Virus record (IMG/VR): IMGVR_UViG_3300026077_000008
Location: 1-41,418 of that record
Length of the DNA stretch: 41,418 nucleotides
Origin: a virus
Reading direction: 5' to 3' (one strand)
The notes beneath the pieces were generated by a model that did no database searches, was not told where the DNA came from, and saw only the letters and a program-made list of their open reading frames with translations. Shown here one piece after another: positions 4,711 to 24,048 of the stretch (within the stretch, counting starts at the first letter, position 1; each line of letters opens with the position of its first letter). The position numbers and the translations under genes were made by a program.

Positions 4711-5037
4711 ATGAGACCAGTACAAGTTTTAGGTGGAGCAGATGGACCTTCAGTTTTTGGTTGCTGCACATGTTTTCCATTTGTTGTAGTACCAGTAATA
4801 CAGAAGGAATTCCATTTAGGACTTCCAGAAGGTACTACAGGACAACCACTAGTACCTGCTCCTGGCATAAACTGCTGTGGTAGAGGGTGTAGTCCTTGTG
4901 TATGTCCTAGAGTCATGGTTGGAATAAGTAAACACTTTGTATTGGGTAGAATGACCTCTCATATAGGTGATCCTAACCCTCCTTCCGTACCACGTTTGAA
5001 TATTGCAACACCAGCTCCTAAATTTATTTACAGCTGA
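4711..5037 (+). CDS. Cys-rich PAAR-like tail spike tip candidate
   Basis: A 108-residue protein whose ATG directly follows the previous stop and has a strong AGGAGG ribosome binding site (4701-4706) inside the previous gene. The segment 'KHFVLGRMTSHIGDP' (residues 74-88) resembles the '(V)NG.P.AR.GD' part of PAAR proteins, which cap the central spike of T4 (gp5.4) and type VI secretion systems. It has eight cysteines in two clusters (residues 18, 19, 21 and 55, 56, 60, 63, 65) plus His 35, 75 and 84, suitable for metal binding as in PAAR tips, which bind zinc. The size matches gp5.4-type proteins (about 100 residues). Its position before gp25 and gp6 fits a baseplate role. PAAR membership is inferred from a weak motif; a cysteine-rich structural protein of another type is the alternative. 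Confidence 0.6.
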   Translation: MRPVQVLGGADGPSVFGCCTCFPFVVVPVIQKEFHLGLPEGTTGQPLVPAPGINCCGRGCSPCVCPRVMVGISKHFVLGRMTSHIGDPNPPSVPRLNIATPAPKFIYS

Positions 5038-5077
5038 TCTTTTTTATGTTATAATAAATCTAGTTTTTATTTAACTG

Positions 5078-5227
5078 ATGGCTAGACGTTTTTCTGTTTC
5101 TGGTAGTTCTGTAGTAACTATTGAACCAAAACCAAAGAAATCAAGACAGGGACAAGGTAAACATTCTAAATTCTCTGCATCAAGCAGGAATCATAAAAGA
5201 AAAATCTATCGAGGTCAAGGAAAGTAA
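5078..5227 (+). CDS. Small basic protein of cyanophages
   Basis: A 49-residue protein beginning MARRFSVSGSS and ending in a Lys/Arg/Gly-rich tail (HKRKIYRGQGK). It has many Lys and Arg residues and few acidic ones, so it should bind nucleic acid or acidic protein surfaces. I recognise the type as a short basic protein often seen near baseplate genes of marine T4-like phages; no function is known to me. The ATG at 5078 follows an AT-rich gap containing AATAAATC (5053-5060), a weak late-promoter-like motif. The stop is three bases before the next ATG at 5231. Confidence 0.7.
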   Translation: MARRFSVSGSSVVTIEPKPKKSRQGQGKHSKFSASSRNHKRKIYRGQGK

Positions 5228-5230
5228 TCT

Positions 5231-5416
5231 ATGCGAATCCAAATCTGGTACTCTGAGCATGTTGAACAGTGGAGGTGGAGTTTGTATACACGCAAATATG
5301 CTACAAATGGGTCTCCGACCCATTTAACTGGATCGGCATCAAAAATAAGAGATGCTATGGAGGATGTATCCAAACGAGTTGAATACTTAACTAATAATGA
5401 TTATGCAAGACACTGA
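5231..5416 (+). CDS. Conserved small hypothetical protein
   Basis: A 61-residue protein starting MRIQIWYSEHVEQWRWSL, with an aromatic-rich N-terminal strand pair and a C-terminal helix (about residues 37-55, 'ASKIRDAMEDVSKRVEYL'). It is spaced only 3 bases from the preceding stop, consistent with co-translation. A competing frame (5121-5327) overlaps it but lacks the small-protein pattern and ribosome binding site. I recognise the general type from cyanophages but not a function. Confidence 0.7.
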   Translation: MRIQIWYSEHVEQWRWSLYTRKYATNGSPTHLTGSASKIRDAMEDVSKRVEYLTNNDYARH

Positions 5417-5417
5417 C

Positions 5418-5636
5418 ATGACTAAAGACAAAAGAAAATTAAAAGCACAAGTTAAATCCAGATGGTATTATATTTTCTGGGGTGCTGCTACCGTATCAGT
5501 ATTTGCTGGACAGATTTATGTAGGAAATGGTTTCCGTAGAATGGCTGAAAGTTTTGATAGAGGTGTAGACACTCTTATTGAAGAAGTTGAGAAAGAAAGA
5601 TGGTTGGATGGTGGTATAATTTGGTTGAGTAATTAA
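5418..5636 (+). CDS. Small single-pass membrane protein
   Basis: A 72-residue protein with a very basic N-terminus (TKDKRKLKAQVKSRW) followed by one hydrophobic segment, roughly residues 15-35 (YYIFWGAATVSVFAGQIYVG), and an acidic helical C-terminal part. The positive-inside rule suggests an N-in, C-out inner-membrane protein. Three in-frame ATGs exist (5397, 5403, 5418). I chose 5418 because it sits immediately after the upstream stop and gives the basic N-terminus directly, but 5403 or 5397 would overlap the upstream gene by only 14-20 bases and cannot be excluded. Its role among baseplate genes is unknown. Confidence 0.65.
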   Translation: MTKDKRKLKAQVKSRWYYIFWGAATVSVFAGQIYVGNGFRRMAESFDRGVDTLIEEVEKERWLDGGIIWLSN

Positions 5637-5638
5637 TC

Positions 5639-5926
5639 ATGTATCAAGCCCTACCGAGTAGGCTACACATTAAAGATAGCCCCATAGCAGGACAAGGATT
5701 ATTTGCCAAAGAGGATATTCCAGCTGGAATGGTATTAGGAATGTCCCATTTGATTGTGGATGAAGTAATTTACAGAACACCTTTGGGTGGTTTTATAAAT
5801 CATAGCGATGATCCTAATTGTGTAAAATGGAATGAAGATGATAAGTATTTCGTCAAAACTATTCGTCATATTGATCAAGGCGATGAGTTATTTTTAAAAT
5901 ATACGTTCTATAGCATAAAAACCTAG
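5639..5926 (+). CDS. Minimal SET-domain protein (putative lysine methyltransferase)
   Basis: This 95-residue protein carries the hallmark SET motifs in order: 'GQGLFA' (18-23) in the N-terminal strand, 'INHSDDPNC' (53-61) corresponding to the NHSxxPN cofactor and pseudoknot motif, and 'GDELFLKYTFY' (81-91) carrying the C-terminal GDEL and catalytic-type Tyr. SET enzymes transfer methyl groups from S-adenosylmethionine to lysine side chains. At 95 residues there is only the SET core, without recognisable pre-SET or post-SET zinc regions. The start at 5639 is two bases after the upstream stop. It lies in the run of small genes between the spike-tip candidate and gp25, so substrates could be virion or host proteins; this is inference. 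Motifs are clear; activity is untested. Confidence 0.85.
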   Translation: MYQALPSRLHIKDSPIAGQGLFAKEDIPAGMVLGMSHLIVDEVIYRTPLGGFINHSDDPNCVKWNEDDKYFVKTIRHIDQGDELFLKYTFYSIKT

Positions 5927-5968: not shown

Positions 5969-6418
5969 TTGTCGTTTAGCGTATCGAGATCTACTGCTCC
6001 AACCAAAATAGTAGACACTTACTTGGGGAAGACTTCTAGAGCATTTAAAGATATAAGCTTTAATTTCTCTAAGAATCCTATCACCAAGGATATTGTTGTA
6101 CTCAAAAATGAGGAAGCAATCAAGCAGTCGGTTAAAAATTTAGTATTAACGCAAATTGGTGAGCGACATTTTAGTCCACTTCTAGGAACATCAACAACGT
6201 CCTATCTGTTTGAATTGTCCACTGGATTTTCTGAAAATGCTTTACTTGAAGAAATTGAAGATGTATTAACGACTTTTGAGCCTAGAATTGCTCTATCGTC
6301 TGTTACTGTCAATGCTGAAGAAGATTTAAACAGATTTGAATGCTTTATTGAATATTATATTATTGGTATTCCTCAGGCATTACAGACAATCGATTTCATC
6401 TTAGTCAGAGAAAGTTAA
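5969..6418 (+). CDS. gp25: Baseplate wedge subunit gp25
   Basis: A 149-residue protein matching T4 gp25, a baseplate wedge component related to type VI secretion TssE. Visible signs are the conserved Glu-Pro-Arg motif in 'TTFEPRI' (residues 104-106), the upstream 'LTQIGERHFSPLLGT' segment and a length near the T4 protein (132 residues). gp25 nucleates sheath assembly at the baseplate together with gp6 and gp53. The best start is TTG at 5969, as no in-frame ATG lies near the conserved N-terminus, and no clear ribosome binding site precedes it. Its stop abuts the gp6 start at 6419. Confidence 0.92.
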   Translation: MSFSVSRSTAPTKIVDTYLGKTSRAFKDISFNFSKNPITKDIVVLKNEEAIKQSVKNLVLTQIGERHFSPLLGTSTTSYLFELSTGFSENALLEEIEDVLTTFEPRIALSSVTVNAEEDLNRFECFIEYYIIGIPQALQTIDFILVRES

Positions 6419-8401
6419 ATGGAGTTACCATCAGTAGCGTCTTTAGAGTTTGAACAACTTAAAGCGTCTATAAAAAATTATATCAAAACAAAATCAGATT
6501 TTACTGATTATGACTTTGAAGGGTCTAACCTTTCAATGTTAGTTGATATTCTTGCGTATAATACATTATATACAAGTTATAATATTAATATGGCATCTAA
6601 CGAGTTAAATCTCGATACTGCCGTTTTAAGAGATAATATAGTTTCACATGCAAAGAAATTAGGTTACAATCCAATTTCTTATCAATCTTCAAAGGTTGTT
6701 GTTGACCTTACATGTAGTAATATAACTGGTTATAAAAGATTAGGTCTTAAGTCTGGACCTGTATTACAGACTAGTCTGGGTGGTAAGAATTATACTTATG
6801 TAGCAACTGATCCTATTAACCTTGCAATAGCTCCAGGCGCTAGTAGTGCGGTCTTCAGAGATGTTGAATTGGTTGAAGGTACAGTATTCGATATGAATTA
6901 TACTGTAGACACTTCAAACGAGCATCAGAGGTTCTGGATACCAAATAATTATATTGATTCTAGTACTGTAAAAGTATTTGTTAAGGATGATGCAAGTGCT
7001 ACTACTTCAGTAGAATATACAAGGAAAAATACAGTTGTAGGTGTTAAACCATCTGACACAGTTTTCTTTGTAGAAGAGGTTCAAGATCAGAAATATGAAG
7101 TAATTTTTGGTGATGATGTAATTGGTAGAAAATTACAAAATGGTGAAGTAGTAACTATTAGATATATTGTAACAGCAGGTGCTGAACTCAATAATGTTAA
7201 AGAAAGTTCCTTACAATTTGTTGGAACTGTTGAATATGTTGATGCTAGTGATGTTACTGGAAAACTTGCTTTAAGTAATGTTTCATTTACTTTAAATGAG
7301 ACAAATTCAAGTGGTGGTGCTTCATTTGAAAGTATTTCTTCTATAAAGTATAGAGCACCAAGATATTATGCTGCACAGGAAAGAGCAGTTACTATTAGTG
7401 ATTATGAATCATTAATAATGCAACTTTATGGTAATACTGATTTGGTTAAGGTTATTGGTGGCGAATCACTTGTACCACCTCAGTATGGTAAAGTCTTTAT
7501 TACTATTAAACCTAAAGTAGGTGAAGTTGTTAGTACTACTGAAAAGTCAAATATAGTAAAGGATCTCAAGGATTATATTGTTGGATCTATCACACCAGTT
7601 ATCTTAGATCCTAGAAAACTTAAAATTAGAGTTAGAGCAGTTGTTCAGTATGATAAAGATAAAACACGAAGAAGTGCTGCAGCATTGGCTAAGTTAATTC
7701 GTGATTTACTTGTTGATTATGAAAATTCTGACGCATTTAAGAATTTTAATGGAAGATTTAGTAAATCTGAGTTACTTGCTGCAATTCAGAATTTAGATAA
7801 TTCTTTCTTATATACTAATGTTAAAACTAGAATATGTGCCGAAATTGATCTAACTTCTTCTCCAGCAGAAACTCCTATTGATTATAGTGGATCATTCTTC
7901 ACTAAGATGAAGAGTAAACTTGATGGAAAATATTCTATTATTTCTTCTTATTTCTGTTATCCAGGCTATGCAGATCCAGTATTCCTTGGAGTTCCTTCAG
8001 AGTTGGATGGTTGTAATTTAGATAACAACATTTATATATTTGATAAAGATGGAAATAAAATAGGTATTGCTGGAACAATTGATTTTGAGACAGGTGAATT
8101 TTCCTTCTCTATTCCATCATGTACTGATGGACCCATAGATCTATGTGGTTTACAGGATGGACCAGATTTAGAGACAGATACAACAACTTATCCTGATATT
8201 ATTATTGATGATCCAATTATTCTAGATGATGACGATCCTGACTCTGATTTAGATGATGATACAACTATTGGTGAACCAACTATCGGTGATACTGTTGGAG
8301 ACCCAACTGTAACTCCTATAACTAGTGTTGTAGATGATCCTAATAATATTATTACTATTGACGACTTTACTCCAGAAACAGATCCTAGCCGCTGCTCATG
8401 A
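6419..8401 (+). CDS. gp6: Baseplate wedge subunit gp6
   Basis: A 660-residue protein with the gp6-type N-terminus ('LEFEQLKASIKNYIK', then 'DILAYNTLYTSYNINMASNE', residues about 40-61). gp6 dimers form the inner ring of the baseplate and link the wedges. The length equals T4 gp6. The last 90 or so residues (from about 570) are an unusual low-complexity acidic tail, with runs such as DDPIILDDDDPDSDLDDD and alternating Thr/Pro/Asp/Ile. This does not look like the conserved gp6 fold and is probably a lineage-specific extension. The stop overlaps the ATG of the giant gene (ATGA at 8398-8401), indicating translational coupling. Confidence 0.92.
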   Translation: MELPSVASLEFEQLKASIKNYIKTKSDFTDYDFEGSNLSMLVDILAYNTLYTSYNINMASNELNLDTAVLRDNIVSHAKKLGYNPISYQSSKVVVDLTCSNITGYKRLGLKSGPVLQTSLGGKNYTYVATDPINLAIAPGASSAVFRDVELVEGTVFDMNYTVDTSNEHQRFWIPNNYIDSSTVKVFVKDDASATTSVEYTRKNTVVGVKPSDTVFFVEEVQDQKYEVIFGDDVIGRKLQNGEVVTIRYIVTAGAELNNVKESSLQFVGTVEYVDASDVTGKLALSNVSFTLNETNSSGGASFESISSIKYRAPRYYAAQERAVTISDYESLIMQLYGNTDLVKVIGGESLVPPQYGKVFITIKPKVGEVVSTTEKSNIVKDLKDYIVGSITPVILDPRKLKIRVRAVVQYDKDKTRRSAAALAKLIRDLLVDYENSDAFKNFNGRFSKSELLAAIQNLDNSFLYTNVKTRICAEIDLTSSPAETPIDYSGSFFTKMKSKLDGKYSIISSYFCYPGYADPVFLGVPSELDGCNLDNNIYIFDKDGNKIGIAGTIDFETGEFSFSIPSCTDGPIDLCGLQDGPDLETDTTTYPDIIIDDPIILDDDDPDSDLDDDTTIGEPTIGDTVGDPTVTPITSVVDDPNNIITIDDFTPETDPSRCS

Positions 8402-11400
8402 AATATCTAAGCGACCACTCAGTAGACCTCTCACATTTAATAGAAAATCAATTCCCTCAATATGTAAGGGAAGATAGTGCAACTTTTATAAAGTTCATTA
8501 AGGCTTATTATGAATCGCAAGAACTAAAGAATTCACCTTTAGATATTGCACAGAATTTGATAGAATATTATAATATTGGTTATTATAAAAAAGCTGAGTT
8601 AGTAGAAAATACTAAATTGAATGGTAATATTGCTGATAGTGCTACTACGATTACTGTAGATAGTACTGTTGGTTTTCCAAATAAAGGGTATATTCAAATT
8701 GATGATGAAATAGTCTATTATGGATCTAAGACTACGACAACATTTGTAGATTGCGTGAGAGGTACATCTGCACTTATATTGTCTAATATACCACTTTCTC
8801 AACTTAGTCTTACTACATCATTAGCAGAGGATCATCTTGATAATACAATAGTCACTAATATTGCATATGAGTTTACATCTGAATTCTTTAGAAGAATTAG
8901 ATCTGAAATTGCTGTTTTAATACCTGAAAATCTTGTAAGTGAATTAGATTTATCATCCTTCTTTTCTAGGATTAGAACTTTTTATGCTTCAAAAGGAAGT
9001 TTAAATTCTCATGCAATTCTTTTCAGAATTCTATTTAATGATAAAAAGGTAAAATTTAATACACAAACAAGGGGTTCTGGTGCAACTCTCAAAATTCCTA
9101 ACTTTGATGGTAAAATTACTGGTGTTGAAATAACTGATGGTGGGTCTGGATATGATTCTAGATCATCTAGTGGTAGTTTAATTAATCCTCCTATTATAGA
9201 AGTTTTTGGTAGTGGTACTGGTGTTGATGTTGCTAATCCAACAGCTGTACTTACTGTTGATAGTATTACTAGTGGAGTCATTGATGGAGTAACAATTACA
9301 GATGTTGGTCAAAACTATGTTGGTCCTATTACTGCGTTTGTAAGAGAAAGAGATTTTGCTGAAGAAGAATTAGTTACTTCAATTTCTGGAAATGGTAGTG
9401 GTATCGTTGAAAGTTGGGATTTTAATACTGGAGAACTTACATTAACTAATATTATAGGATTTTTTGTTAATGCTGATGAATTAGAGTCTAATAGTGGTGA
9501 AGGAGCAAGAGCATATGTAGATACTTTTGAAATTGTATCTCAAGATCCAGAAATAGAGTTTCCGAAGGATTATCTATTCAGACCTTCACATTCAAACTTC
9601 TCTGGAAAGAAATTAGCTAGATTGGAGGTTATTAATAAGAAATCTAATATTTCTGATCCTTCTTTAGACATTATTGTTAAGAATAAGACTGTACCACCAT
9701 CATATATCACATTTGTTCAGGATCAAGATAGTGTATTTGGTGTATCTAACGTAACTATTGAAAGTAGTGAAGTTTTAAAGATTGATAGTGCTGGAAAACC
9801 GACATATGAGGCTGATATTGAAATTAATGATGATTTCAATAAAATATACCTCCCAGCGTCAACTCAACTAGTTCAATCATATAATTCTGCTTCTGATACA
9901 ATAATTACAGTTGATGATGCATCTGGATTTCCTACTACAAAAGGTCAGATCTATATTGATGATGTAATCATTGATTATACTGAAAGAACTGTAAATCAAT
10001 TCTTAGGTTGTACTGTTGTTTCTGGATCTGGTACTAAAGCAGTTTCTACTGAAGTAGTTGCTTATGGAAGGTATAGAACAAGAAAAGAGTATACAAGAGG
10101 TGAATTTGTAGGATTAGGTCAAGAAAGATATTTTGGAGAAAATTTATATAGATCAGTAGCTGAAGGTAAAGCATCTAGTACAGTTGATCCTACTCATACT
10201 TTAGGAACGGTTAAAGTTGGTACTATTGAGTGGGAATATATTGGAAGTTCTAAAGTAAGTTATTTTGTTGATGTTTTTGTTGGTTTCCCTGAAAAGACTT
10301 GTACTGGTAATGAAGGAGAATTAACTATAAGAGTTGATAAAGTAAGAGATTTAGCTGTAGGTCAATTAGTAGTTGGTTCTGGTATAGGTGTTGGTGCAAG
10401 AATTCGTTCTATATCAGGAAAAGAATTAACTTTATCCATACCAAATACTTCAAAAGTTATTGGTGGATGTATATTCTCTTCTGCACAAGCAAGATTAGTT
10501 GGATTAGTTGATGCAGTCACTATTGAGAAGAGTGGTGCTTTATTCAGTCCTCAAAAGTACTTCTTTGATGATAAAACTTATGAAGATTTTTCAGGAACAG
10601 AATATAGTTCATGGACAATTAATAGTGACCATACATTAGATACAGACAAAGATTTTGTTGGTATTTCTCAGATTTATAACTATAAATCACCAAAAGATCA
10701 ACATGTTTATGTTTCATCTTCTGCTATTCCAGGCTATATTTTTAGTGGCTCTGTAAATGCTAAAAATAGGGTTCTTTCAAATATCTTTGATGGATATACT
10801 AATGCTTTTACTCTCAGTGGACTTAGTACTCCTGTAGAGAAGGATTTATTCATTTTTAGAAATGCATTATTACAAGATCCATCATCAGATTATGATGTTA
10901 TCAATAATGTATTAGTTTTTGATGAAACTCCTAGTCAAAATGAATCTGTTTATGTTAGATATTTTAATGATACTAATAAAGTAACAAAATTATCATTCAC
11001 ACAAACCTCTCAAGCTGCTGCTAATTCTACAATTACTTTAAGTGGTTTAGGATCTTACAATACTTCAAATGATTATCTATTTGTAACTGTAAATGGTGTA
11101 TTACAAGTCGGAAATGCTGTTAGTTACAATAATACAAGTAAAATAGCAACATTTACTGATAATGTAAACACTCTTACTACAAAATTAACACCTTTAGGTC
11201 CTTCACAGACATTTGATGTTACTGATGCAACTTATAATGCTGTTAATGGTTTGATGGTACTTACCATTGGTGCTCATAGTTTAACAACTAGTGATTCAGT
11301 TAGGATTACTCCTAATTCATTACCATTTACTTGTACTATGGATGGTAATACATCACAGAAGACTTATCCTAGAGTAACCGACCCTGCATATGATACATCC

Positions 11401-14400
11401 CTTGCTGTACAGAGTCCTACAGCGACTACAATCACTGTTAACGTTGGTGCGAGTCCTTTGGTAAACCACAACGTTACTGGTGGTCAATATGACCCAATAT
11501 CAGGTTTGATGGTATTAACAATAGGTTCTCATTCACTTAAGGTTGGTCAAAGCGTTAAGATTGCTAATGGTGCATTGAAATTCCAATGTGCTAAGGATAA
11601 TTACGCAACAGATCATAGTTATCCTCGTACAACTGACCCTGTTTATAATACAGCAGTTGAAATTACAGCAATTACTTCAGATAGTATCACAATGAGAGTT
11701 GGTACTTCTACAGATACATCTAGTCATAGATGGAAACCTTCTTATACTGCAACTGCTGGTGTTGTAAGTGGTGGTAATTATACTCATACTTGGACTGGAA
11801 ATACTGTAAAAGATGCTGTTAAAATTGGTGGTACTCGTTATAATCCTAATACAGGTGTTCTAACACTTAGAATTTCTAATAGTAATCTTTTGGTAGGAGA
11901 TAAAATTAAGATTGCTGACGAAGGATTGACATTCAGATGTGCTAAAGATGATTATACATCTAATCATTCATATCCAAGAACAACAGATCCTTCTAGTGGT
12001 CAATGGCTGGAAGTAACAAATATTAGTGGCGAAGAACATGTAGTTAATGTAAATGTTGCATTTGATACTGTTGATAGATACGCACATAACTTTATTTCAT
12101 CTGTAACTGATTCTATTACCAGAAGACCTGATAAAGTAGTAGCTTATTGGATAAAAAATGCAAAAGTTTTAGATGCACTTACATCATCAGCTTCTAAAAC
12201 GTATACATTACAAAGTTCAAGTTCTAATTATACTGCCGCAACTACTGATACTGTATTTGTTGCTATAAATGGTGTTATACAAAAACCAACAACTTCTTAT
12301 ACGATATCTGGATCTACATTAACCTTTAATGAGGTTAATTCTGGAACCGCAATTACTGTTATTGATTTGGAAGATGGTAGTGGTGGAGCAGATATTGAAA
12401 ATGTTGATCTAACTGGTCTTGCTGGTATTAATCAGGATAAGGATAATTATAAATTACAAAAATTAGTTAAGAGAATTCCTTTCCCTGCAAGTGTTATAAA
12501 TGAAAATATTTTAAGAACATCTAAATCACTTTCACCATCAAAAACTCAAAAAGCTATTGGTATTACTGTAGATGGTATTCAATATCAAAGTATTCATGGT
12601 AATAGAGTTCCCTATGGTGCTGTAAAATCAATTACTATCGGTTCTGGTGGTACATATGAAGTTCCATTTGATCTTACTACAACAGGTATAGGTAAATTCT
12701 TAAAAACTTCATATCCAAAGGTTGTTTTCACTAAAAATGGTGGAGAATCATCTGATTTAACTGTAAGTGAAACAGTATTTGATATTTCCGCTGGAATTAA
12801 GAAAATTGATATTAATAAGTTCTTAGATACTACTAATCTAAGTGGATTTACTATAAAACCAAATGTTCAAGTAATTAATAATAATGTAACAAATCCAACA
12901 GGATTTAGAAATGCTGTAGTTGATGTTGGTTATAATAAAGGATCTATAGATTCATTTATTGTAGTGGATTCTGGATCTGGATATATTGAAGCACCAACAA
13001 TAAAAATAACTGGTGGTGGTAAACTTGAATCTGAAAATTATAATATTCCTTTCTTCAATACAGTTACTAAAGATAATATTGTAACTATGGAAGGTTCTAT
13101 TATATCTTCTAAGAGTAGTTCTCCCACAATTACATTAGCAACTCCTGTAGGTAGTTCATTTAATGCTAATCCTGTAACAACAGTTGATAGTGGTTCTAAA
13201 GGAGAAGTTAAAGTATTCGTTGCTAATGGTCAGATTGTAGCAACACAGGTTGTTAATAAAGGTCAAAATTATTATACAAAACCAACTCTTAAAGTTAATG
13301 GTGTTGGTACAGGTGCTGTTTTAGAAGTTACTTTAGATGGTAGTGGTGGATTAAATGGAGCAATAATAGTAAATGCTGGTAGTGGTTATACTGTTCCTCC
13401 TGTAGTTACTGTTCAAAATGATGATACTTTAGCATCTGCTAGTTCAACACTAAATGAGTGGACATTTAACATACCATTTAGATTTAATACTAAAATAGAT
13501 GAATTTGGTGGATATGTATTTGATGAAAATTCAGGTGCCAAGTTAAAAGTAGAATCATTTACATCAAGTACATTAGTCATGTCTGATGCTACTACAGATG
13601 TAGTAGTTGGAATGGAAGCTACTCATCCACAGTTACCATCTGGTACATTCGTAACTAAAGTTGATAATTCATCAAAAACAATTTATCTTTCTAGATCTGG
13701 ATTAGATCAAGTTACAGATATAACATTAAATGGTGCAACTGTAAGTTTCTATCAAGGTGATGATAGATTTAGAGGAACACTTAAGGCACAAGAAGTTTCA
13801 TCTACAACTTTCCCTGATTCTAGATTAAAATTCCAGTATCTACAATTAAAGAATACTAGTAAATTTGAAGATTATTATGGTATTGTTAAACCAGGCACAT
13901 CACATACTGCAACTACTGGTACTACATATGATCCCACAACTGGTATTGTCAAGGTTACTACAACCACTGCTCATGGATTAGCAAATGGAGATTATGTTAA
14001 TTTTGCAGATGGATCATTAAAATTCTCATGTAATTTCAATGGTGCTACTGGTGCTAGTTCTCAAAAGGATTATCCAAGATCCACTGATTATGCAAGTGGT
14101 AAATATTTAAAAATTTCTAAAGTAACCAATACTACTTTTGAAGTTACAATTTTAGATGTAATTCCTTCAACTAATGTTAATGAACATATATTTGTTTCTG
14201 CAACAGCAGATGGTATTACTAGTGCAAAACATTCTAAATTAGTTGGATTCTCTTATGATGGACATCCAATATACTGTAAGTATGGTTTTACTACTGCTTT
14301 AGATAAAACTTCTGGAATATCAGAACAGACTTCATCTTGGAGACTTAAAGGTAATAGATTTAATGGGCCATCAGTTGCTGATTATCCATTAGGTTCTTTT

Positions 14401-17400
14401 ATAGAAGATTATGAATATGATAAGACATTTGGAACTCTAGACGAATTTAATGGTAGATTCTGTGTAACACCAGAATATCCAGATGGTGCATACTGTTACT
14501 TTATGGTAGATCAGTTCCCATTTGTTGTTGGTCCAAAATATTTCTCAGATCCAGATTGCTATAACACTGGACAAAATAGAACAAATGATAGAGTTCCTAA
14601 ACATTTTGTTAGAGTTAATGATACTGCAAATACATATTTCCCACAGGAAGAAAGAAATATAAACAAATCTATTCTCTTTACTGATTATTCATCTGTTGGT
14701 ACTGTTGATGATGTATACATCGAGACAGCAGGTGATAATTATAGAGTTGGTGATAAATTAGTATTTGATAATGATGATACTGGTGGATCTGGAGCAATTG
14801 CTTATGTTAGTTCTGTAGATTCTCCACCTATTTCTTCAGTTTCTATTGCTGATGGTGTAATTGAGTTTACCTTTACTGGTAGTCACTCAATTTCTAAAAA
14901 TGATGTTGTAGATGTTACATATACAAAACAAACTACAACTACAGAAATTAATTTAGATACTATTCCTACAATACCTACTGTATTAAGTGGTAAGAGTGTT
15001 TATGCTGTAGTTTTAGAATCTCATAAGATTTACAGACTTAAGTTTGGTACATCTAGACCATATAACTTATCCTTTGATATTTTAAATTTCAATCCATATT
15101 ATCAGAAGGATATCAATTTACAATCAACTTATTTTGATATAGATCCATCAAAAGTTCCAAGTGTTGTATTTGTACATACAGATAATGCAATATTTGAACT
15201 TAGAGTAGAAGAAGCTCCTATTATTGGTAGACATAAAGTTACTGAAGTAATAACATCAAATTCATTTACTGTAAAAGATAATAGTGTTAAAACAGCAGAT
15301 ACATCAGTAATTGATATCGCAATAAGATCTAATGGTGCATCTGGACCAATTAAAACGGTAAATGTTGTTAATGGTGGTGGTGGATATAGAGTTCTGCCTG
15401 GAGTAACTAGTGTTTCTTCTGTTTCTGGAAAAAATGCTGTTATACAAGCAACATCAACCACAATTGGTAGTATTAATTCTATTAAGTTTATTACTTACGG
15501 TGATAAGTTCTATGGATCTAAGACTGTAAGAAATTATGTAGATCTTCCTATTACAGTAAAGGTAAAATCTAATTTTGAAATTGAATCTGTCAGTGTTGTT
15601 AACAGTGGATCAAATTATCTATTAAGTCCTTATGTTAGGGTAAATGGATTAAATGATGCTGCAACTCTAGAACCGACATATAGTGTTGGTGAAGTTGTTG
15701 ATATGAAGGTATTAGAAGGTGGTAGTGGATTTAGTGAAGAACCAACTATTGAAGTATTCAGTCAAAACGGTGGTTCTGGTGCTAAATTTGTAAGTAAACT
15801 AAGAAGAAAATCATTAGTTGTTGGTGATGCTATTACTATTAAAGATAAGAGTAGTACTGCTAAAATTCTTTCCGTTGATACAAGATCTTCTACAGTAGAA
15901 TTACTTGTTACTTCTGGATCAATTTTAAAAGATGATGTAATACTTTCTTCTGATGGTAGAACTTATGGTACTATTATAGAGGTTAATACTGCAAAAGCTT
16001 ATTCTAAATCACAGTCATTTGGTCAAATTAAAGAAAAATTTGTCGGATCTGTAGGATTTATCAGTGATAGTTTCCAAAAACTTGGTGATAATGTTTATTA
16101 TCAAGATTGGGCATATAGTCTTTCAAATGATAGAAATATTATTGAGTGGAGGAAGAATGTTAATGATAATACCCATCCAGCTGGATTTAGATTATTTGGA
16201 AAAAATAGATTATATAGTAGAAAGTCTTTATTAGGTAGATCACAGAATATTGTAAGAAGTGCTGTTACTTTCAAATCTACTATTAGTAGTCTATTAGATG
16301 CAGATATAGAAAGTCCAAAATGTACTAAAGGGTATATTTATTTTCATGGTTTAGCAAATCCAAATCCATATAAACTTAATGATATTGTATTTGGTTCTAT
16401 AACTGGCAATCTTGCAAGAGTTATAGAAGTTGGGGTTGGATATATTGTTGTATTATATTTTGGTGAAGAAATTCAGATTGGTGAACAAGTAATCAATTAT
16501 CTTAGAAATGTATCTATTACCAATTCTTCTGTAACTGATAAAACATTATTAGCAGTTAATGGTATCTTACAGTCTCCAAATGAATCTTATAAGATAGTTG
16601 ATAAGAATATTCTTCCACAGTTCCCAATATTCCCCAACGATGAGTTAGTAACACATCATTTAACTACTTCTTTCAATATTGTTGAGGGATCTGGTATTAA
16701 TAATATTAATGAAGTTAATTTAACTAAAGGTGGAGTAAATTATACTGCTTCCAATAGTGATCATTTAATAGTCTCTATGAATGGTGTTATTCAGAAGAGT
16801 ACTAATTTATCATTAATTAATGGTGGTAAGACTATTAAATTTACTGGTTCAACTTTAGATGGACAAAGTAAACCAGAATTTATATTAGAACACGCTCAAT
16901 TACAACCTTTGACATTTACTGGAGCCGCTGGTACACAATTTACACTTAATGTAAATCCATCTTCCGATTGTAAACTGTTAGTATTCTTTGTAGGTGTTGA
17001 TCAATCTCATTTATTGACAGACTATACTGTTAGTGGAAGTACAATTACTTTCTCTGCAAGTGTTGATCCTACTGAGATATTTGGTTGGCATATAGATGAA
17101 ACAGTTACTTGTGAGAAAGTTACTTTACCAAATCTATATTCTAATGCTGCGGTTGGTAAAGATAAAGTATGTAATCAAGCTGGTAATGTAAAACTAGAAA
17201 TAAAGTCAGATAATGTAAAGAGAGCAAATGATTTCTTTGAGGTAGAAAAAGAACAATTAGATGGAACTATGTTCCTATCTGGTAGTAAAACTTATGGTTT
17301 TGGTACTAAATTCAAGACTTCTAACCCAGAGAATTCTAGTAGTCATGTAGAAATTATTAATGACATTTCTAATAAAGTTAATGGTGTTACATCTACATTT

Positions 17401-20400
17401 GACCTTAAGATTAATAAGAATCAAGCTTATACTCCTGTAGATGGTGTTAATTCATTACAAGTAGTAGTGAATGGAACTATATTGGGTAAGAATAATAGAA
17501 CTGTAACTCCTACAACTGCTTCTTATACTGCAACAACTGGAATAATAACTCTTACAGTACCTAATCATCAATTTGCTAATAATGATCTTATTAAATTTGC
17601 TGATGGTGCTATTACATTTACATGTAGTATGGATAATAATCTTACCAGACATTCATATCCAAGATCTACAGATCCTATCAGTGGTGAGTGGGTCAAAGTT
17701 TCAAACGTAACTACAAATACATTTGATGTTCAAGTTGGTAAATCACCTCAGAGGGTATACACTGCTACTGGTGGAAGTTACGCTGCTTCATCAGGATTAC
17801 TTACATTAACTATTGGTGGTCATATTCTTAAATCTGGTGATAAAATTAAGATTAGTGATAATTCATTGAAATTTAAGTGTGATGAAGACAGTTTTGGTTC
17901 TGTACATACATATCCTCGTACTACAATTGATAACCATACTGCTGAGTCTGGCACTACTTACAATCCATCTACAGGTATTATGACAGTTAAGGTAACTGGA
18001 CATAGTATGAGAGATAAGGATTGGATTAGATTTGATAATGAGTCTATTAAATTTACATGTGATTTTGGTCAGACAGAGAAATCATATCCGAGAGTAGGTG
18101 ATCCTGTAAGTGGTAAATGGATACCAATTACATATGTTGATGCTAATACCTTTACTGTTGATATACTTCAAGGTATAACACCAACAAATACTACTGCTCA
18201 TACATTTGCTTCAGCAACTGCAAATGGTATCAAACAGAAACGTGATAGAGCATTTGATGCTCCAGTTAATATTGAATCTGTAACTGCTAATAGTATAACA
18301 TTGGATGTAGGTATTTCTGATAATAGAACACATCAGTTTGTTACAAATACATCAGATATTGTAAAAAATAATATAATTGCTGGTGGTGGATATCCACATA
18401 CATTCCATTCTGCTACAGTTGGTGGTGTTAAGAGTTCTACTGGATATACAATTAGTGGTACTCAAATTACATTTGCAAAACCTCCATCAATTACTGATAA
18501 GGTTTCAATTAAAGATTTTGTAACCACATATAAAGCAAATACTGGTACTAAGAAAGGTGCTGAGTTAGATGAATTTAATGTTGCAAATGGAGTAAGAAAA
18601 GTATTTAATATCTCTGATGATGGTGTACCAGAGACAGTTCAAAATAAGACTGATCTATTCACTATAAAAAATGGTATTCTTATTAAACCAGATATTCATT
18701 TGGGTGGTACTGGATTTAGACCTAATCCACAACTTCAAAGTGCTGTTAATAATAAAGTAACTTTCAAAGATGCTCCAGCAGCTGCTGATAGTGTTGGTAT
18801 GATGGTCTTTAATAGACAATTATCAGCTGCTAATAAGAGAAATTGGGTTCTTGATAGAAATGAAGAATTTGATAATGTCAGAAAATTATTTACACTACAA
18901 TTAGCAAGACCTGACCATACTAAAGATTGGGCTGATTTAATAGGAGTTCCTACTGCTGAAAGTCTAATAGTTGTTAAAAATGATAAGACTCTTGTTCCAA
19001 CAACTGACTATACAATAGTTACACCTACAGATCCTAATGATATAAATGATGGTTCTGGATCGTATAGAATACAGTTTACTACTGCACCATTAACTACAGA
19101 TATTATTCATATTCAATATACAGCAAATGATGCTAATTTTGAGGATAGAACTAGTGAATTATCCCAAACTTCTGCAAAAGTATTATCTTACACAACTGCT
19201 TTAACTGGATCTGGTTGGATTCCTTTCTGTTATGTTGATGGTGATTATATTGATCAAGGTGATGTAACACACGATTCAGCTGCAAAAACACTTACATTTA
19301 CAGATAATACAACATTAGCATCTCAAAGTGTAGAAGTTCACTTTAAGAAAGCAACTTTAAATCCAACTAATGTTTATGGTGATATATTAACTGGTGAATT
19401 AATAGTTAAACAACGTGCTGATAGTAATGGAGTTTATAATAATGTAGAAATTGGAACTACTAATAATACATATAATTTACTTTTGAGAAATGGTTCATCT
19501 AATAGTACTATCACAGGGGTTAAAGTTGTTAATATCTTACTAAGAAATGGTTCCACACAACTTATAATAGGATCTAATCATTATCGTATACTTACGATGA
19601 ACTTGAATAATCCTGCTATGTTTGATGCTGCAGGAGCTACATTTGTTGGTGCAAATGGTATTGTATTAGCACCAGATGATCACTTTGATCATTCTGGATC
19701 AGGTACAGCAGCATCTACTGGAATTGGTGATGGTAAGACATATGCAGCAATACAATTTAAATTCTATGGATATATGAATAAGGGTATTGGTGCTACTTGG
19801 TGGCAATCAGACCCAAGAGGAATGCCTTATCTTGCAAAAATTGATATCATTACACATGACAAAGATGATGGTGATGGAAGACTCAGAAGAGTTAACATGC
19901 TCGATCAATCACAAGGATTCTTTGGTGGTAATGCTAGAAGAAGCTTTAGATTAGAAGTTGATGGTGTTAGATATTCCAATTATACTGGTTATGAAGATAT
20001 TATTGTTATAAAGAATGATATACCTTTAACACAAAATACACATTACACATTATCAGGAATTGCTAATTCAGCTACTGCTGAAAAGGGTGTTATAACTTTC
20101 GTTACTGCTCCTGCTGAAAATGATGATATCTATATGGTTGCAATGTATGATAATGAATTGATTGCCCTAACTTCTGTTAATGCTACTACTTACACTACTA
20201 GTAGAGTACTTACTACAGCAGAAAGAGAAAGTCTAATTGTTTTTGCTGGAAATAAATTTAAATTTGGTAATGGTAATGGATATACCATTGCTAGTAATGG
20301 ACAGACTATAACATTCCCAAGTAATCCTGGCACTGGTACTGCTCCTTGGGGTATTCTTGCTACTACTGGTAAAGTTGCTGATAAAATTCATACTCCTTTT

Positions 20401-23400
20401 GATGGTACAGAACCAGCATTTAATTTATTCTTAGATAATGAAAACTTTGTACCAGTTGGAACACAGTCCAATGATGCTAGTCCAGATCAAAATAGTTTAT
20501 TTGTAACTAAAAATGGTTCTCTTTTAATTCCAACTACAGATTATACTATAGGAGGAACTATAGGTTCTAAGATTGTATTTAATGTTTCACCATCAGCGGG
20601 TGATGATATTACTATATCATCTCAAGGTTTAGTTAAACCACTTGATAATATTACTGGTACTGGGGTAAAAACTTATACTATTCAAAGTTCTAGTACCGAT
20701 TACTATCCAAATGCTCTCATTGGTAGACCAAGAGAATTGGAAAATCAGGTTATTGCTATTAAAAATAATAAAGTACTAGATCCAATAAAGGATTACTATG
20801 TTTTCAATGAAACTATTACATTTACTGATACATTAACATCAAGTGATACTGTAAGATTATTTGATTGGTTGGGTGATCATGATGATGTTGCTGTAAGTTC
20901 TTATAATCAACAGGTTGAAGTTAATGAAACTATTCAATTACCTGGCGAGACTAAGAGAAGAACTGTAACAGCAGTCCATTCTCCAACTGCAATTAGTGTT
21001 GATACTCCTAGTGGAAATACAAGTCCATCTGGTCTTGTTGCAAGACCACAGATAACTGATGGTGAGTTAAAATCAATTACCGTTTCTAACGGTGGAGTTG
21101 GCTATCCACAGAATACAAAATTCCGTACATACGGTCTTGGAGATTCTGCTTCTGCAAATACGATATTAGTTCCAACTAAAGGAAATAGTATTAAGACTAT
21201 CACTGGTTCTACTACCAATACAGCAAGTAATGCTGCATATGTACCATCTACAGGTGTTTTAACATTAACTATTCCCCATCATGGGTTGAATACTGGTGAT
21301 AATATTAAGATTGCAGATGAGTCATTAACATTTACATGTTCAATGGATAGTTATGCCACAGAACATAAGTATCCAAGAACTTCTACAAATACTCATTCTG
21401 TATCTACAGCAACTTATGAACCTACTACAGGAACATTAAATATTACTACTACAAAACCTCATAATTTACAACTAGGTGATAGGATTAAGATCGGTGATAA
21501 TGCATTAACCTTCAAATGTTTGTTAGATAGTTATCAGACTACACATACTTATCCAAGATCTACAGATCCATTTAGAGATAAATGGTTGCCTGTAAGTAAT
21601 ATTGGAACATCATCATTCTCTGTTAATGTTGGTTCTGCTCCTTTAGGATATCATACACCAACAGCTGTTGAATATGAACCTGCTACAGGTATCATGACGA
21701 TGAATATTGGTTCTCATAATATTAAACTTGGAGATCCCATTAAGATAAACAAAGAATCATTAACATTTACTTGTACACAGGATGGAAATCTAACACAAAA
21801 ATCATATCCAAGGGATAGTGTTACTTATCATACAGCATCAAATGCAATTTATGAACCTACTACTGGTATCATGACTGTTACTATTAACAATCATGGATTT
21901 ATTAAAGGTGAATTTATCAAATTTATGGTTGGTTCTATACAATTTAGATGTGCAACTGATGGTACTAATCAACCAAAAGCTTATCCTAGAACTTCCGATC
22001 CAGTATATGATACATGGTTAAAGGTTGATAATATAACAACTAATACATTTGATGTTCAGGTTCTTGATTCTATACCTTCCACAAATGTTACTACTCATGT
22101 TTTCGCAGGGGCAGATATTAATGGTATTGCTAAGAAAGTTGATCAAGCATATGAAACTGCACTTACCGTAACAGCAATAACATCTGATACAATCAGTGTA
22201 AATGTTCTTTCTAAGATTCCATCTACTAATACTAGTGTTCATACGTTTGTTGAAGCGTCTGACAATTGTATAGTCTCTGGTGGTGGTTATACACACAGAT
22301 TTGTTTCTGCTGCAGCAGATTGTTTAACCGAGAAGAAAGACTTTGCTTCTGAACAATGGTTAACATCGACTGTAGTTGATATGAATACACTTACAGTTAA
22401 TGTTGGTAAGGTACTTGCAAATACTCAATACACACCAACAGCAGTTAATTATGATCCTGTAACTGGATTACTAACATTAGATGTTGGTTCTAACTTTGAT
22501 GAATTAAAAGTTGGAAAGAGTATTATAATTGCTGATAATTCACTTAAATTTAAGTGTGCTATGGATGGTAATGATAGTGTTAAATCTTACCCTAGACCAG
22601 GCATAGACAAAGCATCTGGAAGATCTCTTCCAATTACTGCAAAATCTGGTAATACAATTACTGTAGATGTGGGTGCTTCTGGTACTAATACTACGTTTAC
22701 ACCTACTAATGCTCAATATAATCAAGCAACTGGTGATATGGTATTGGTTATAGGACAACATGGATTGCGTAAAGATACAAATGTAGTCCTAGTTAATCAA
22801 TCATTATCATTCCAATGTGCTAAAGATGGTTATATATCTACCACTACATATCCTCGCCCTGGCACAGACCCAGTTGCAGGTGAAAAATCAATTGCAATAA
22901 CAGACGTTGGATCTACTGAACACACAGTAACATCAGCATCTTATGATGCTGCAAATGGTCTAGTGACCATAAGTGTTTCAGATCCTAGTGATAAATTTGC
23001 AAATGATGATTATGTGTTAATTAAAGATAATGCTCTTGTATTTACATGTGGTTTAGATGGAAATGCTACCCAACATTCATATCCTCGTCCATCATTTGAT
23101 TATCCAAGTGGTAGATGGATGAAGATTTCTAGTAAAACACATTCTAGTGGTACTAGTACATTTAATATAACTGTTGGATCATCAACATATACTGGTACTC
23201 ATACATTTGTAGGTGCAGCTGTTGATGCTTTAGAGAGACAAAATGGTGAGATTACTATCAATGTTGGATTTGATTCTAACACCAGTAACCAATACCAACA
23301 TAGATTTGTTTCTGCAACAAGTGGTGCGGTTAAGTATACACCAAACTCTACTCATACATTCCAGACAGGACAAGCTTCTGCTAACAACTGTATTAGTATG

Positions 23401-24048
23401 AATGGTGATTCTACACATAAATTTGTCAGATCATCTACAAATGGTATCTCTGTTGAGGAGAAAACATTTGTATCAGTTGGTGATACTGTTATAGATTATG
23501 TCGGACATAACCTTGATAATACAACATTAGTTCCAACTTATGAAACATATGTGGTAAGAGATCAACAGTTAACTTCCAGTGATGTTACATTTGGTACTAA
23601 ATTATCAGCTGGTATTAACACATCTGTTGAAACTATACCAGTTACAGGTACAGGAATGGCTTCTGAAAGTAATATTTCTATTACTATAACTTCAGGCAGT
23701 GGTTCTAGTGCCGTCCTTCAACCATTTGTTGTTGATGGAAAAATTACTAAAGTAGTTGTTGAAACTGCTGGTAGTGGTTATGATTCCACCGATATTACAT
23801 TGGCTGTAACTAATGGTGGTGGATCTGGTGCTGTATTAGAACCTGTTTTAAATAGTTCTGGTGCATTTACTAGTGTGACAGTTGTTAATGAGGGTATTGG
23901 GTATGATTCCTATAGGGCTTTCATAAATAAGGAAGTTATAGAATATACCAATCACACTACTACCAACTTGAAGGGTGTGACTAGAGGAGTAGCAGGTAGT
24001 ACTGCTGCAACTGGTGCTCAAAATGATAAAGTCTACTTCGACTCGTAA
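8398..24048 (+). CDS. Giant modular virion protein in the gp7 position
   Basis: A single 5216-residue ORF. The N-terminus ('IENQFPQYVREDSATFIKFIKAYYE', split here for length: residues 16-40) is of the type found in marine phage baseplate proteins encoded between gp6 and gp8, the place of T4 gp7. Recognisable modules: 'DDEIVYYGSKT...RG' hairpins (about 95-122 and 511-543); GSGY...PP beta modules (about 243-265, 1520-1680, 2320-2460 and 5120-5180); at least ten 'NG.(I/L)...DY' modules; 14 copies of a Cys/YPR module in four clusters; and a YHYH domain (about 1945-2055). It is almost entirely beta and poor in Cys apart from the YPR modules. No frameshift is visible along 15.6 kb. It is most likely an elongated baseplate-peripheral or fibre-like protein that contacts the host; this is inferred. 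Naming it gp7 rests on gene order. Confidence 0.88.
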   Translation: MKYLSDHSVDLSHLIENQFPQYVREDSATFIKFIKAYYESQELKNSPLDIAQNLIEYYNIGYYKKAELVENTKLNGNIADSATTITVDSTVGFPNKGYIQIDDEIVYYGSKTTTTFVDCVRGTSALILSNIPLSQLSLTTSLAEDHLDNTIVTNIAYEFTSEFFRRIRSEIAVLIPENLVSELDLSSFFSRIRTFYASKGSLNSHAILFRILFNDKKVKFNTQTRGSGATLKIPNFDGKITGVEITDGGSGYDSRSSSGSLINPPIIEVFGSGTGVDVANPTAVLTVDSITSGVIDGVTITDVGQNYVGPITAFVRERDFAEEELVTSISGNGSGIVESWDFNTGELTLTNIIGFFVNADELESNSGEGARAYVDTFEIVSQDPEIEFPKDYLFRPSHSNFSGKKLARLEVINKKSNISDPSLDIIVKNKTVPPSYITFVQDQDSVFGVSNVTIESSEVLKIDSAGKPTYEADIEINDDFNKIYLPASTQLVQSYNSASDTIITVDDASGFPTTKGQIYIDDVIIDYTERTVNQFLGCTVVSGSGTKAVSTEVVAYGRYRTRKEYTRGEFVGLGQERYFGENLYRSVAEGKASSTVDPTHTLGTVKVGTIEWEYIGSSKVSYFVDVFVGFPEKTCTGNEGELTIRVDKVRDLAVGQLVVGSGIGVGARIRSISGKELTLSIPNTSKVIGGCIFSSAQARLVGLVDAVTIEKSGALFSPQKYFFDDKTYEDFSGTEYSSWTINSDHTLDTDKDFVGISQIYNYKSPKDQHVYVSSSAIPGYIFSGSVNAKNRVLSNIFDGYTNAFTLSGLSTPVEKDLFIFRNALLQDPSSDYDVINNVLVFDETPSQNESVYVRYFNDTNKVTKLSFTQTSQAAANSTITLSGLGSYNTSNDYLFVTVNGVLQVGNAVSYNNTSKIATFTDNVNTLTTKLTPLGPSQTFDVTDATYNAVNGLMVLTIGAHSLTTSDSVRITPNSLPFTCTMDGNTSQKTYPRVTDPAYDTSLAVQSPTATTITVNVGASPLVNHNVTGGQYDPISGLMVLTIGSHSLKVGQSVKIANGALKFQCAKDNYATDHSYPRTTDPVYNTAVEITAITSDSITMRVGTSTDTSSHRWKPSYTATAGVVSGGNYTHTWTGNTVKDAVKIGGTRYNPNTGVLTLRISNSNLLVGDKIKIADEGLTFRCAKDDYTSNHSYPRTTDPSSGQWLEVTNISGEEHVVNVNVAFDTVDRYAHNFISSVTDSITRRPDKVVAYWIKNAKVLDALTSSASKTYTLQSSSSNYTAATTDTVFVAINGVIQKPTTSYTISGSTLTFNEVNSGTAITVIDLEDGSGGADIENVDLTGLAGINQDKDNYKLQKLVKRIPFPASVINENILRTSKSLSPSKTQKAIGITVDGIQYQSIHGNRVPYGAVKSITIGSGGTYEVPFDLTTTGIGKFLKTSYPKVVFTKNGGESSDLTVSETVFDISAGIKKIDINKFLDTTNLSGFTIKPNVQVINNNVTNPTGFRNAVVDVGYNKGSIDSFIVVDSGSGYIEAPTIKITGGGKLESENYNIPFFNTVTKDNIVTMEGSIISSKSSSPTITLATPVGSSFNANPVTTVDSGSKGEVKVFVANGQIVATQVVNKGQNYYTKPTLKVNGVGTGAVLEVTLDGSGGLNGAIIVNAGSGYTVPPVVTVQNDDTLASASSTLNEWTFNIPFRFNTKIDEFGGYVFDENSGAKLKVESFTSSTLVMSDATTDVVVGMEATHPQLPSGTFVTKVDNSSKTIYLSRSGLDQVTDITLNGATVSFYQGDDRFRGTLKAQEVSSTTFPDSRLKFQYLQLKNTSKFEDYYGIVKPGTSHTATTGTTYDPTTGIVKVTTTTAHGLANGDYVNFADGSLKFSCNFNGATGASSQKDYPRSTDYASGKYLKISKVTNTTFEVTILDVIPSTNVNEHIFVSATADGITSAKHSKLVGFSYDGHPIYCKYGFTTALDKTSGISEQTSSWRLKGNRFNGPSVADYPLGSFIEDYEYDKTFGTLDEFNGRFCVTPEYPDGAYCYFMVDQFPFVVGPKYFSDPDCYNTGQNRTNDRVPKHFVRVNDTANTYFPQEERNINKSILFTDYSSVGTVDDVYIETAGDNYRVGDKLVFDNDDTGGSGAIAYVSSVDSPPISSVSIADGVIEFTFTGSHSISKNDVVDVTYTKQTTTTEINLDTIPTIPTVLSGKSVYAVVLESHKIYRLKFGTSRPYNLSFDILNFNPYYQKDINLQSTYFDIDPSKVPSVVFVHTDNAIFELRVEEAPIIGRHKVTEVITSNSFTVKDNSVKTADTSVIDIAIRSNGASGPIKTVNVVNGGGGYRVLPGVTSVSSVSGKNAVIQATSTTIGSINSIKFITYGDKFYGSKTVRNYVDLPITVKVKSNFEIESVSVVNSGSNYLLSPYVRVNGLNDAATLEPTYSVGEVVDMKVLEGGSGFSEEPTIEVFSQNGGSGAKFVSKLRRKSLVVGDAITIKDKSSTAKILSVDTRSSTVELLVTSGSILKDDVILSSDGRTYGTIIEVNTAKAYSKSQSFGQIKEKFVGSVGFISDSFQKLGDNVYYQDWAYSLSNDRNIIEWRKNVNDNTHPAGFRLFGKNRLYSRKSLLGRSQNIVRSAVTFKSTISSLLDADIESPKCTKGYIYFHGLANPNPYKLNDIVFGSITGNLARVIEVGVGYIVVLYFGEEIQIGEQVINYLRNVSITNSSVTDKTLLAVNGILQSPNESYKIVDKNILPQFPIFPNDELVTHHLTTSFNIVEGSGINNINEVNLTKGGVNYTASNSDHLIVSMNGVIQKSTNLSLINGGKTIKFTGSTLDGQSKPEFILEHAQLQPLTFTGAAGTQFTLNVNPSSDCKLLVFFVGVDQSHLLTDYTVSGSTITFSASVDPTEIFGWHIDETVTCEKVTLPNLYSNAAVGKDKVCNQAGNVKLEIKSDNVKRANDFFEVEKEQLDGTMFLSGSKTYGFGTKFKTSNPENSSSHVEIINDISNKVNGVTSTFDLKINKNQAYTPVDGVNSLQVVVNGTILGKNNRTVTPTTASYTATTGIITLTVPNHQFANNDLIKFADGAITFTCSMDNNLTRHSYPRSTDPISGEWVKVSNVTTNTFDVQVGKSPQRVYTATGGSYAASSGLLTLTIGGHILKSGDKIKISDNSLKFKCDEDSFGSVHTYPRTTIDNHTAESGTTYNPSTGIMTVKVTGHSMRDKDWIRFDNESIKFTCDFGQTEKSYPRVGDPVSGKWIPITYVDANTFTVDILQGITPTNTTAHTFASATANGIKQKRDRAFDAPVNIESVTANSITLDVGISDNRTHQFVTNTSDIVKNNIIAGGGYPHTFHSATVGGVKSSTGYTISGTQITFAKPPSITDKVSIKDFVTTYKANTGTKKGAELDEFNVANGVRKVFNISDDGVPETVQNKTDLFTIKNGILIKPDIHLGGTGFRPNPQLQSAVNNKVTFKDAPAAADSVGMMVFNRQLSAANKRNWVLDRNEEFDNVRKLFTLQLARPDHTKDWADLIGVPTAESLIVVKNDKTLVPTTDYTIVTPTDPNDINDGSGSYRIQFTTAPLTTDIIHIQYTANDANFEDRTSELSQTSAKVLSYTTALTGSGWIPFCYVDGDYIDQGDVTHDSAAKTLTFTDNTTLASQSVEVHFKKATLNPTNVYGDILTGELIVKQRADSNGVYNNVEIGTTNNTYNLLLRNGSSNSTITGVKVVNILLRNGSTQLIIGSNHYRILTMNLNNPAMFDAAGATFVGANGIVLAPDDHFDHSGSGTAASTGIGDGKTYAAIQFKFYGYMNKGIGATWWQSDPRGMPYLAKIDIITHDKDDGDGRLRRVNMLDQSQGFFGGNARRSFRLEVDGVRYSNYTGYEDIIVIKNDIPLTQNTHYTLSGIANSATAEKGVITFVTAPAENDDIYMVAMYDNELIALTSVNATTYTTSRVLTTAERESLIVFAGNKFKFGNGNGYTIASNGQTITFPSNPGTGTAPWGILATTGKVADKIHTPFDGTEPAFNLFLDNENFVPVGTQSNDASPDQNSLFVTKNGSLLIPTTDYTIGGTIGSKIVFNVSPSAGDDITISSQGLVKPLDNITGTGVKTYTIQSSSTDYYPNALIGRPRELENQVIAIKNNKVLDPIKDYYVFNETITFTDTLTSSDTVRLFDWLGDHDDVAVSSYNQQVEVNETIQLPGETKRRTVTAVHSPTAISVDTPSGNTSPSGLVARPQITDGELKSITVSNGGVGYPQNTKFRTYGLGDSASANTILVPTKGNSIKTITGSTTNTASNAAYVPSTGVLTLTIPHHGLNTGDNIKIADESLTFTCSMDSYATEHKYPRTSTNTHSVSTATYEPTTGTLNITTTKPHNLQLGDRIKIGDNALTFKCLLDSYQTTHTYPRSTDPFRDKWLPVSNIGTSSFSVNVGSAPLGYHTPTAVEYEPATGIMTMNIGSHNIKLGDPIKINKESLTFTCTQDGNLTQKSYPRDSVTYHTASNAIYEPTTGIMTVTINNHGFIKGEFIKFMVGSIQFRCATDGTNQPKAYPRTSDPVYDTWLKVDNITTNTFDVQVLDSIPSTNVTTHVFAGADINGIAKKVDQAYETALTVTAITSDTISVNVLSKIPSTNTSVHTFVEASDNCIVSGGGYTHRFVSAAADCLTEKKDFASEQWLTSTVVDMNTLTVNVGKVLANTQYTPTAVNYDPVTGLLTLDVGSNFDELKVGKSIIIADNSLKFKCAMDGNDSVKSYPRPGIDKASGRSLPITAKSGNTITVDVGASGTNTTFTPTNAQYNQATGDMVLVIGQHGLRKDTNVVLVNQSLSFQCAKDGYISTTTYPRPGTDPVAGEKSIAITDVGSTEHTVTSASYDAANGLVTISVSDPSDKFANDDYVLIKDNALVFTCGLDGNATQHSYPRPSFDYPSGRWMKISSKTHSSGTSTFNITVGSSTYTGTHTFVGAAVDALERQNGEITINVGFDSNTSNQYQHRFVSATSGAVKYTPNSTHTFQTGQASANNCISMNGDSTHKFVRSSTNGISVEEKTFVSVGDTVIDYVGHNLDNTTLVPTYETYVVRDQQLTSSDVTFGTKLSAGINTSVETIPVTGTGMASESNISITITSGSGSSAVLQPFVVDGKITKVVVETAGSGYDSTDITLAVTNGGGSGAVLEPVLNSSGAFTSVTVVNEGIGYDSYRAFINKEVIEYTNHTTTNLKGVTRGVAGSTAATGAQNDKVYFDS
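11212..12120 (+). repeat. YPR module cluster 1 (3 copies)
   Basis: Three tandem copies of an approximately 80-110-residue module within the giant protein, at residues about 939-1241. Each copy runs 'Y.P..G.(M/L)...I..H.L..GD.(I/V)KI', then '(S/A)L.F.C..D', then 'YPR.TDP', then a strand ending 'V.VG'. The Y of YPR is encoded at 11365, 11620 and 11971. Confidence 0.85.
13906..14230 (+). repeat. YPR module, single copy 4
   Basis: One isolated copy of the same module. It has 'TYDPTTGIVKV', 'AHGLANGDYVNF', 'SLKFSCNF' and 'DYPRSTDY', the last with Y encoded at 14071. It directly precedes the YHYH domain. Confidence 0.8.
14236..14555 (+). other. YHYH domain embedded in giant protein
   Basis: Residues about 1947-2053 of the giant protein read 'GFSYDGHPIYCKYGF', then about 50 residues later 'LDEFNGRFCVTPEYPDGAYC', then 'FPFVVGPKYF'. 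This order matches YHYH domains (DGHPIYG, D.(C/F)NGRF.VTPEYPDGTYAYF, FPY..GP), a family of unknown function seen in secreted bacterial and viral proteins. In this copy the glycine usual after 'HPIY' is Cys. Confidence 0.8.
17515..18440 (+). repeat. YPR module cluster 2 (3 copies)
   Basis: Three further copies, with the Y of YPR encoded at 17656, 17911 and 18085. The third is shorter between the Cys and YPR ('FTCDFGQTEKSYPRVGDP'). Each retains 'L/I.F.C' and an 'H.F' strand downstream. Confidence 0.85.
21214..23340 (+). repeat. YPR module cluster 3 (7 copies)
   Basis: The largest cluster, with the Y of YPR encoded at 21370, 21550, 21805, 21982, 22588, 22849 and 23080. Spacing varies from 59 to 202 residues because some copies are followed by extra 'H.FV.A' strands. 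The last three copies share YPRP instead of YPRT/S, which suggests a later local duplication within the cluster. Confidence 0.85.

Follow-up and report, generated by a model that had tools for sequence, protein, structure and literature searches.

We describe a compact, unnamed family of SET-domain proteins carried by marine phages and scattered marine bacteria, recognizable by the signature R-T-P-L-G-G-F-I-N-H-S and by a shortened segment equivalent to SET-I. We favor, at somewhat better than even confidence, the reading that the gene product is a functional SET methyltransferase of reduced size, with a lysine on a protein common to unrelated marine phages and bacteria as the likeliest substrate.

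SET enzymes are known above all for the marks they place on plant and animal histones, and research on them has dealt mostly with eukaryotes and the pathogens that attack them. Bacterial SET proteins (PMC3980110), the viral protein vSET, and annotated SET proteins in uncultured tailed phages were known before. A literature search that missed most subscription journals found no paper on this family and none discussing phage SET proteins. The initial annotation did allow for bacterial and viral members, but by calling SET enzymes mainly eukaryotic and these members scattered it understated the prokaryotic and phage side.

The SET gene of a cyanophage

The stretch analyzed, hereafter the window, is a 41,418-base virus record (IMG/VR IMGVR_UViG_3300026077_000008) that carries T4-type genes for the baseplate, head closure, tail sheath and small terminase subunit. 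Its plastocyanin matches exclusively cyanophages and marine viruses; the window therefore most likely derives from a cyanophage whose host is a marine cyanobacterium. The features discussed below are:

4711..5037, + strand: spike-tip (PAAR-like) candidate, by position only
5397..5636, + strand: small ORF upstream of SET, PHROG 2000 (function unknown), its stop 2 nt before the SET ATG
5639..5926, + strand: SET-domain gene, 95 codons plus stop, ATG start
5678..5707, + strand: SET residues 14-23, SAM-binding motif I SPIAGQGLFA (GxG); S14, G18 and G20 near-invariant in 257 relatives
5774..5806, + strand: SET residues 46-56, family signature RTPLGGFINHS including the NH motif N54-H55, from the alignment of relatives
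5879..5911, + strand: SET residues 81-91, C-terminal catalytic motif GDELFLKYTFY with Y88 at the catalytic Tyr position, from the alignment of relatives
5969..6418, + strand: gp25-type baseplate wedge protein, by PHROG 261 and 43 (baseplate wedge subunit) and tblastn
6419..8401, + strand: gp6-type baseplate wedge protein, by tblastn to Synechococcus phage gp6
40374-40775: petE (plastocyanin), 69% identical to the P-RSM6 copy

The SET gene had been placed between the spike-tip candidate and gp25. That order holds, but the PHROG 2000 ORF intervenes before the SET gene; gp25 starts 42 nt after it. The spike-tip candidate had no PHROG match in the profile search, and phage ACG-2014d has a PAAR protein annotated at the equivalent place. 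The T4-type late promoter motif TATAAATA occurs at three sites in the window, no more than expected by chance and none of them before the SET gene, and a related motif gave nothing. Farther downstream, positions 8398-24048 form one ORF of 5,216 aa, apparently with many internal repeats of ~100 residues each.

Fold, conservation and selection

The 95-residue protein matches the Pfam SET profile (PF00856; E 6.1e-13, 49.6 bits, cutoff 22.4), and the same holds for every one of 22 sequences in a diverse alignment of the family. This match, the structural model and the relatives together bear out the initial description of a SET protein with intact NHSDDPNC (residues 54-61) and GDEL/Y motifs. By profile it is also a member of PHROG 28741 (function unknown), which covers 93 of its 95 residues (E 5e-46) and whose annotation omits the SET identity. 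The AlphaFold model, built from 22 sequences from the window and IMG/VR, has a mean pLDDT of 89.6 and confidently predicts a SET fold, with vSET and MLL1 as PDB matches by Foldseek and structural alignment.

vSET (PBCV-1 A612L) is a chlorovirus H3K27 methyltransferase that acts on eukaryotic host histones (PMC3089700). It resembles the window protein in being a small stand-alone viral SET domain, and is the top Foldseek match to the model (E 1e-6), aligning with Z 11.7, rmsd 2.1 over 85 residues and 28% identity. Those 85 residues cover a span of 105 in vSET, the alignment ending at model residue 88 and vSET residue 105. The best sequence match is to MLL/KMT2 SET domains (phmmer 1.7e-5; profile 8e-11 to about 1e-9), and the model aligns with MLL1 at Z 11.9, 88 of its residues spanning 123 in MLL1, which is ~35 longer. 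MLL/KMT2 SET domains belong to large histone-modifying complexes. Unlike vSET, the window protein would act in a host without eukaryotic histones, which cyanobacterial and other phage hosts lack. A host chromatin-like protein may be its target, the evidence pointing neither way.

The shortening falls on the substrate side: between strand 32-40 and the NH motif, the model leaves a hairpin and a short helix. In larger SET enzymes this place, between the same strand and the NH motif, is occupied by the SET-I segment, which helps to choose the substrate and bind peptides; here its equivalent would be reduced to a short hairpin bearing the invariant RTPLGG. The SET proteins in the loci checked are 90-167 residues long, and no fused protein hinting at function was found among them. 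The closest viral fold match (BFVD A0A218ML49) is a SET domain within a 971-aa uncultured-virus protein, a fusion that may hint at function. Two other assignments were rejected: PADLOC gave no match and hence no hint of a known defence role, and an NCBIfam match to a Legionella effector, fragmentary and far below cutoff, was taken as generic SET similarity.

Relatives occur in Prochlorococcus phages P-SSM7 and P-RSM6, a single-cell marine virus, pelagiphage Kolga, and at least about 600 IMG/VR contigs: a pattern scan confirmed at least 596 places among the 600 matches listed, and other scans found 201, 86 and 578 places encoding close relatives, in sets that overlap to some extent. In an alignment of 257 distinct sequences, spanning relatives down to ~40% identity, the GxG and NH cofactor motifs and the C-terminal E-L-x-x-x-Y are invariant or nearly so. 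G34, R46, G50, G51, F52, N54 and N60 are invariant, H55 is kept in 255 of the 257, and Y88 in all 255 that reach that position, counts biased toward the signature (one scan searched for it; three others used several patterns). Loss of the catalytic Tyr in homologues, named initially as the observation that would speak against the enzyme, was thus not seen. Pairwise comparison of the phage copies gives a median dN/dS of 0.146, a rough value with dS near saturation. The SET gene is under purifying selection, and this value and the 201 pattern-matched IMG/VR places show that the ORF is no product of chance.

Two viral copies carry NC in place of NH (L200:2859-3263 and L205:3137-3541) and are possibly altered or inactive. 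Such variants, and a family with no known activity, would suit an inactive relative in which the SET fold serves for structure or binding. The conserved positions are, however, those of the cofactor and active site, with Tyr88 and Asn54 invariant, and we consider an inactive protein highly improbable.

Gene neighborhoods and candidate substrates

In T4-like marine phages the usual place of the gene is immediately ahead of gp25. In 55 of 80 IMG/VR loci gp25 starts less than 80 nt after the SET stop, and in seven more it lies within 2 kb; no gp25 was seen in 18, in some because the contig ends. The SET-gp25 order is kept even between SET copies only ~50% identical, and in P-RSM6 the SET gene is immediately upstream of gp25. 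One other group of marine phages has SET between the TerL and portal genes, likewise in a structural block (21-23 loci, including L321 and L325). Such positions would suit methylation of a virion protein as the particle assembles, with gp25 or a different baseplate protein as the target; virion proteins were one of the two kinds of target originally suggested from the gene's location.

The neighborhoods do not support the step from location to a virion target. In cultured Kyanoviridae the slot before gp25 is variable, holding small ORFs, purM or ferredoxin, and most Kyanoviridae records with gp25 give no SET match. Relatives adjoin nrdB in P-SSM7, which has no SET before gp25, follow primase/helicase in Kolga-group phages, sit among sugar-nucleotide genes in some other phages, and occur in bacteria. 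Because the gp25 slot is variable and relatives lie in other contexts, location is weak evidence for a baseplate role. SET has also diverged less than its neighbor gp25 (median distances 0.36 and 0.55), as would be predicted for a target other than gp25; a Mantel test of the two sets of distances (r 0.49) indicates partial co-inheritance and is not decisive. No gp25 lysine was specific to SET-bearing phages in a comparison with only six gp25 proteins from phages lacking SET, and the sole strongly conserved lysine is present in five of those six. The wide-ranging contexts and the lower divergence of SET make a dedicated virion target less likely, and we judge methylation of a virion protein to be quite unlikely.

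In bacterial genome assemblies the family is found on 26 contigs from scattered marine bacteria of several phyla. One of these contigs (L086) is clearly phage DNA in a bacterial bin, since gp25 follows its SET gene. The gene is patchily distributed: 11 of 249 Flavobacteriaceae genomes carry it, against 1 of 53 in Pelagibacteraceae and 5 of 98 in Porticoccaceae. A SAR11 single-cell contig (L085) carries a copy at 5001-5282 between chromosomal genes: ccm genes plus a Nudix gene lie to one side of it, and pagL, ftsY and ffh to the opposite side. In a tree of 94 columns for 90 rows, whose deeper branches are unreliable, this copy nests within the supported main phage group (98/95), which suggests phage-to-cell gene transfer. 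Other bacterial copies have housekeeping genes as neighbors. Three Bacteroidota assemblies (L088, L090, L095) have SET inserted in an arginine gene cluster, in the order argG-argC-SET-proC-argD, with SET overlapping proC in L095. At least seven Porticoccaceae loci (L096, L099, L102, L104, L107, L109, L110) share a conserved fabB-SET neighborhood, with fabA upstream where the contig reaches and redoxin and ssb downstream.

These metabolic neighbors, argC-SET-proC in Flavobacteria and fabA-fabB before SET in Porticoccaceae, would fit a small molecule as substrate, as would a phage protein without the full SET-I, the aid to peptide binding. There is precedent in BurB, a bacterial, SAM-dependent enzyme of SET fold and an S-methyltransferase on free methionine, which proves the fold capable of small-molecule methylation (PMC12542666). 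However, our protein is nearer in sequence and fold to protein lysine methyltransferases, and its match to BurB is marginal (E 0.76; 95 vs 172 aa). The bacterial neighbors come from different pathways and point to no shared metabolite; we regard a small-molecule substrate as unlikely. Since the bacterial neighborhoods agree on no single pathway, no candidate target emerges from them either.

Proposed function and significance

We prefer methylation of a protein lysine. The enzyme is predicted to bind SAM via its SxxxGxGxFA and NH motifs, and would transfer the methyl group at a narrow site that Tyr88 closes off. One short enzyme is kept across phage genome plans and bacteria of several phyla, and the relatives of solved structure that come nearest to it in profile and fold comparisons are protein lysine methyltransferases. 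Because SET enzymes most often methylate a protein lysine, as these relatives do, such a lysine is our best guess; the target might be a lysine of an abundant host protein, for example, rather than a specific baseplate protein. Against this reading stand the divergent bacterial neighborhoods and the aromatic lysine channel as judged from sequence only: Tyr88 is present, but the switch position two residues before it, usually Phe or Tyr in histone enzymes, is mostly Leu or Val across the 257 relatives, and the Tyr of the MLL1 first-strand motif aligns with an aliphatic residue 35 in most family members.

Our guess at the benefit to the phage goes further, and we hold it only tentatively: this very abundant marine-phage family may methylate one conserved bacterial protein across unrelated hosts, redirecting the infected cell. 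If true, this would be a phage counterpart of histone methylation with a bacterial target.

The annotation of PHROG 28741, now labelled unknown, can already be improved to SET, and the cultured carriers P-SSM7, P-RSM6 and Kolga make SET function directly testable. Many hundreds of fragments of ocean phages keep the compact gene under purifying selection, and the same invariant site occurs in free-living bacteria. We therefore suggest that SET methylation, of protein or metabolite, is a common and unstudied part of marine infections.
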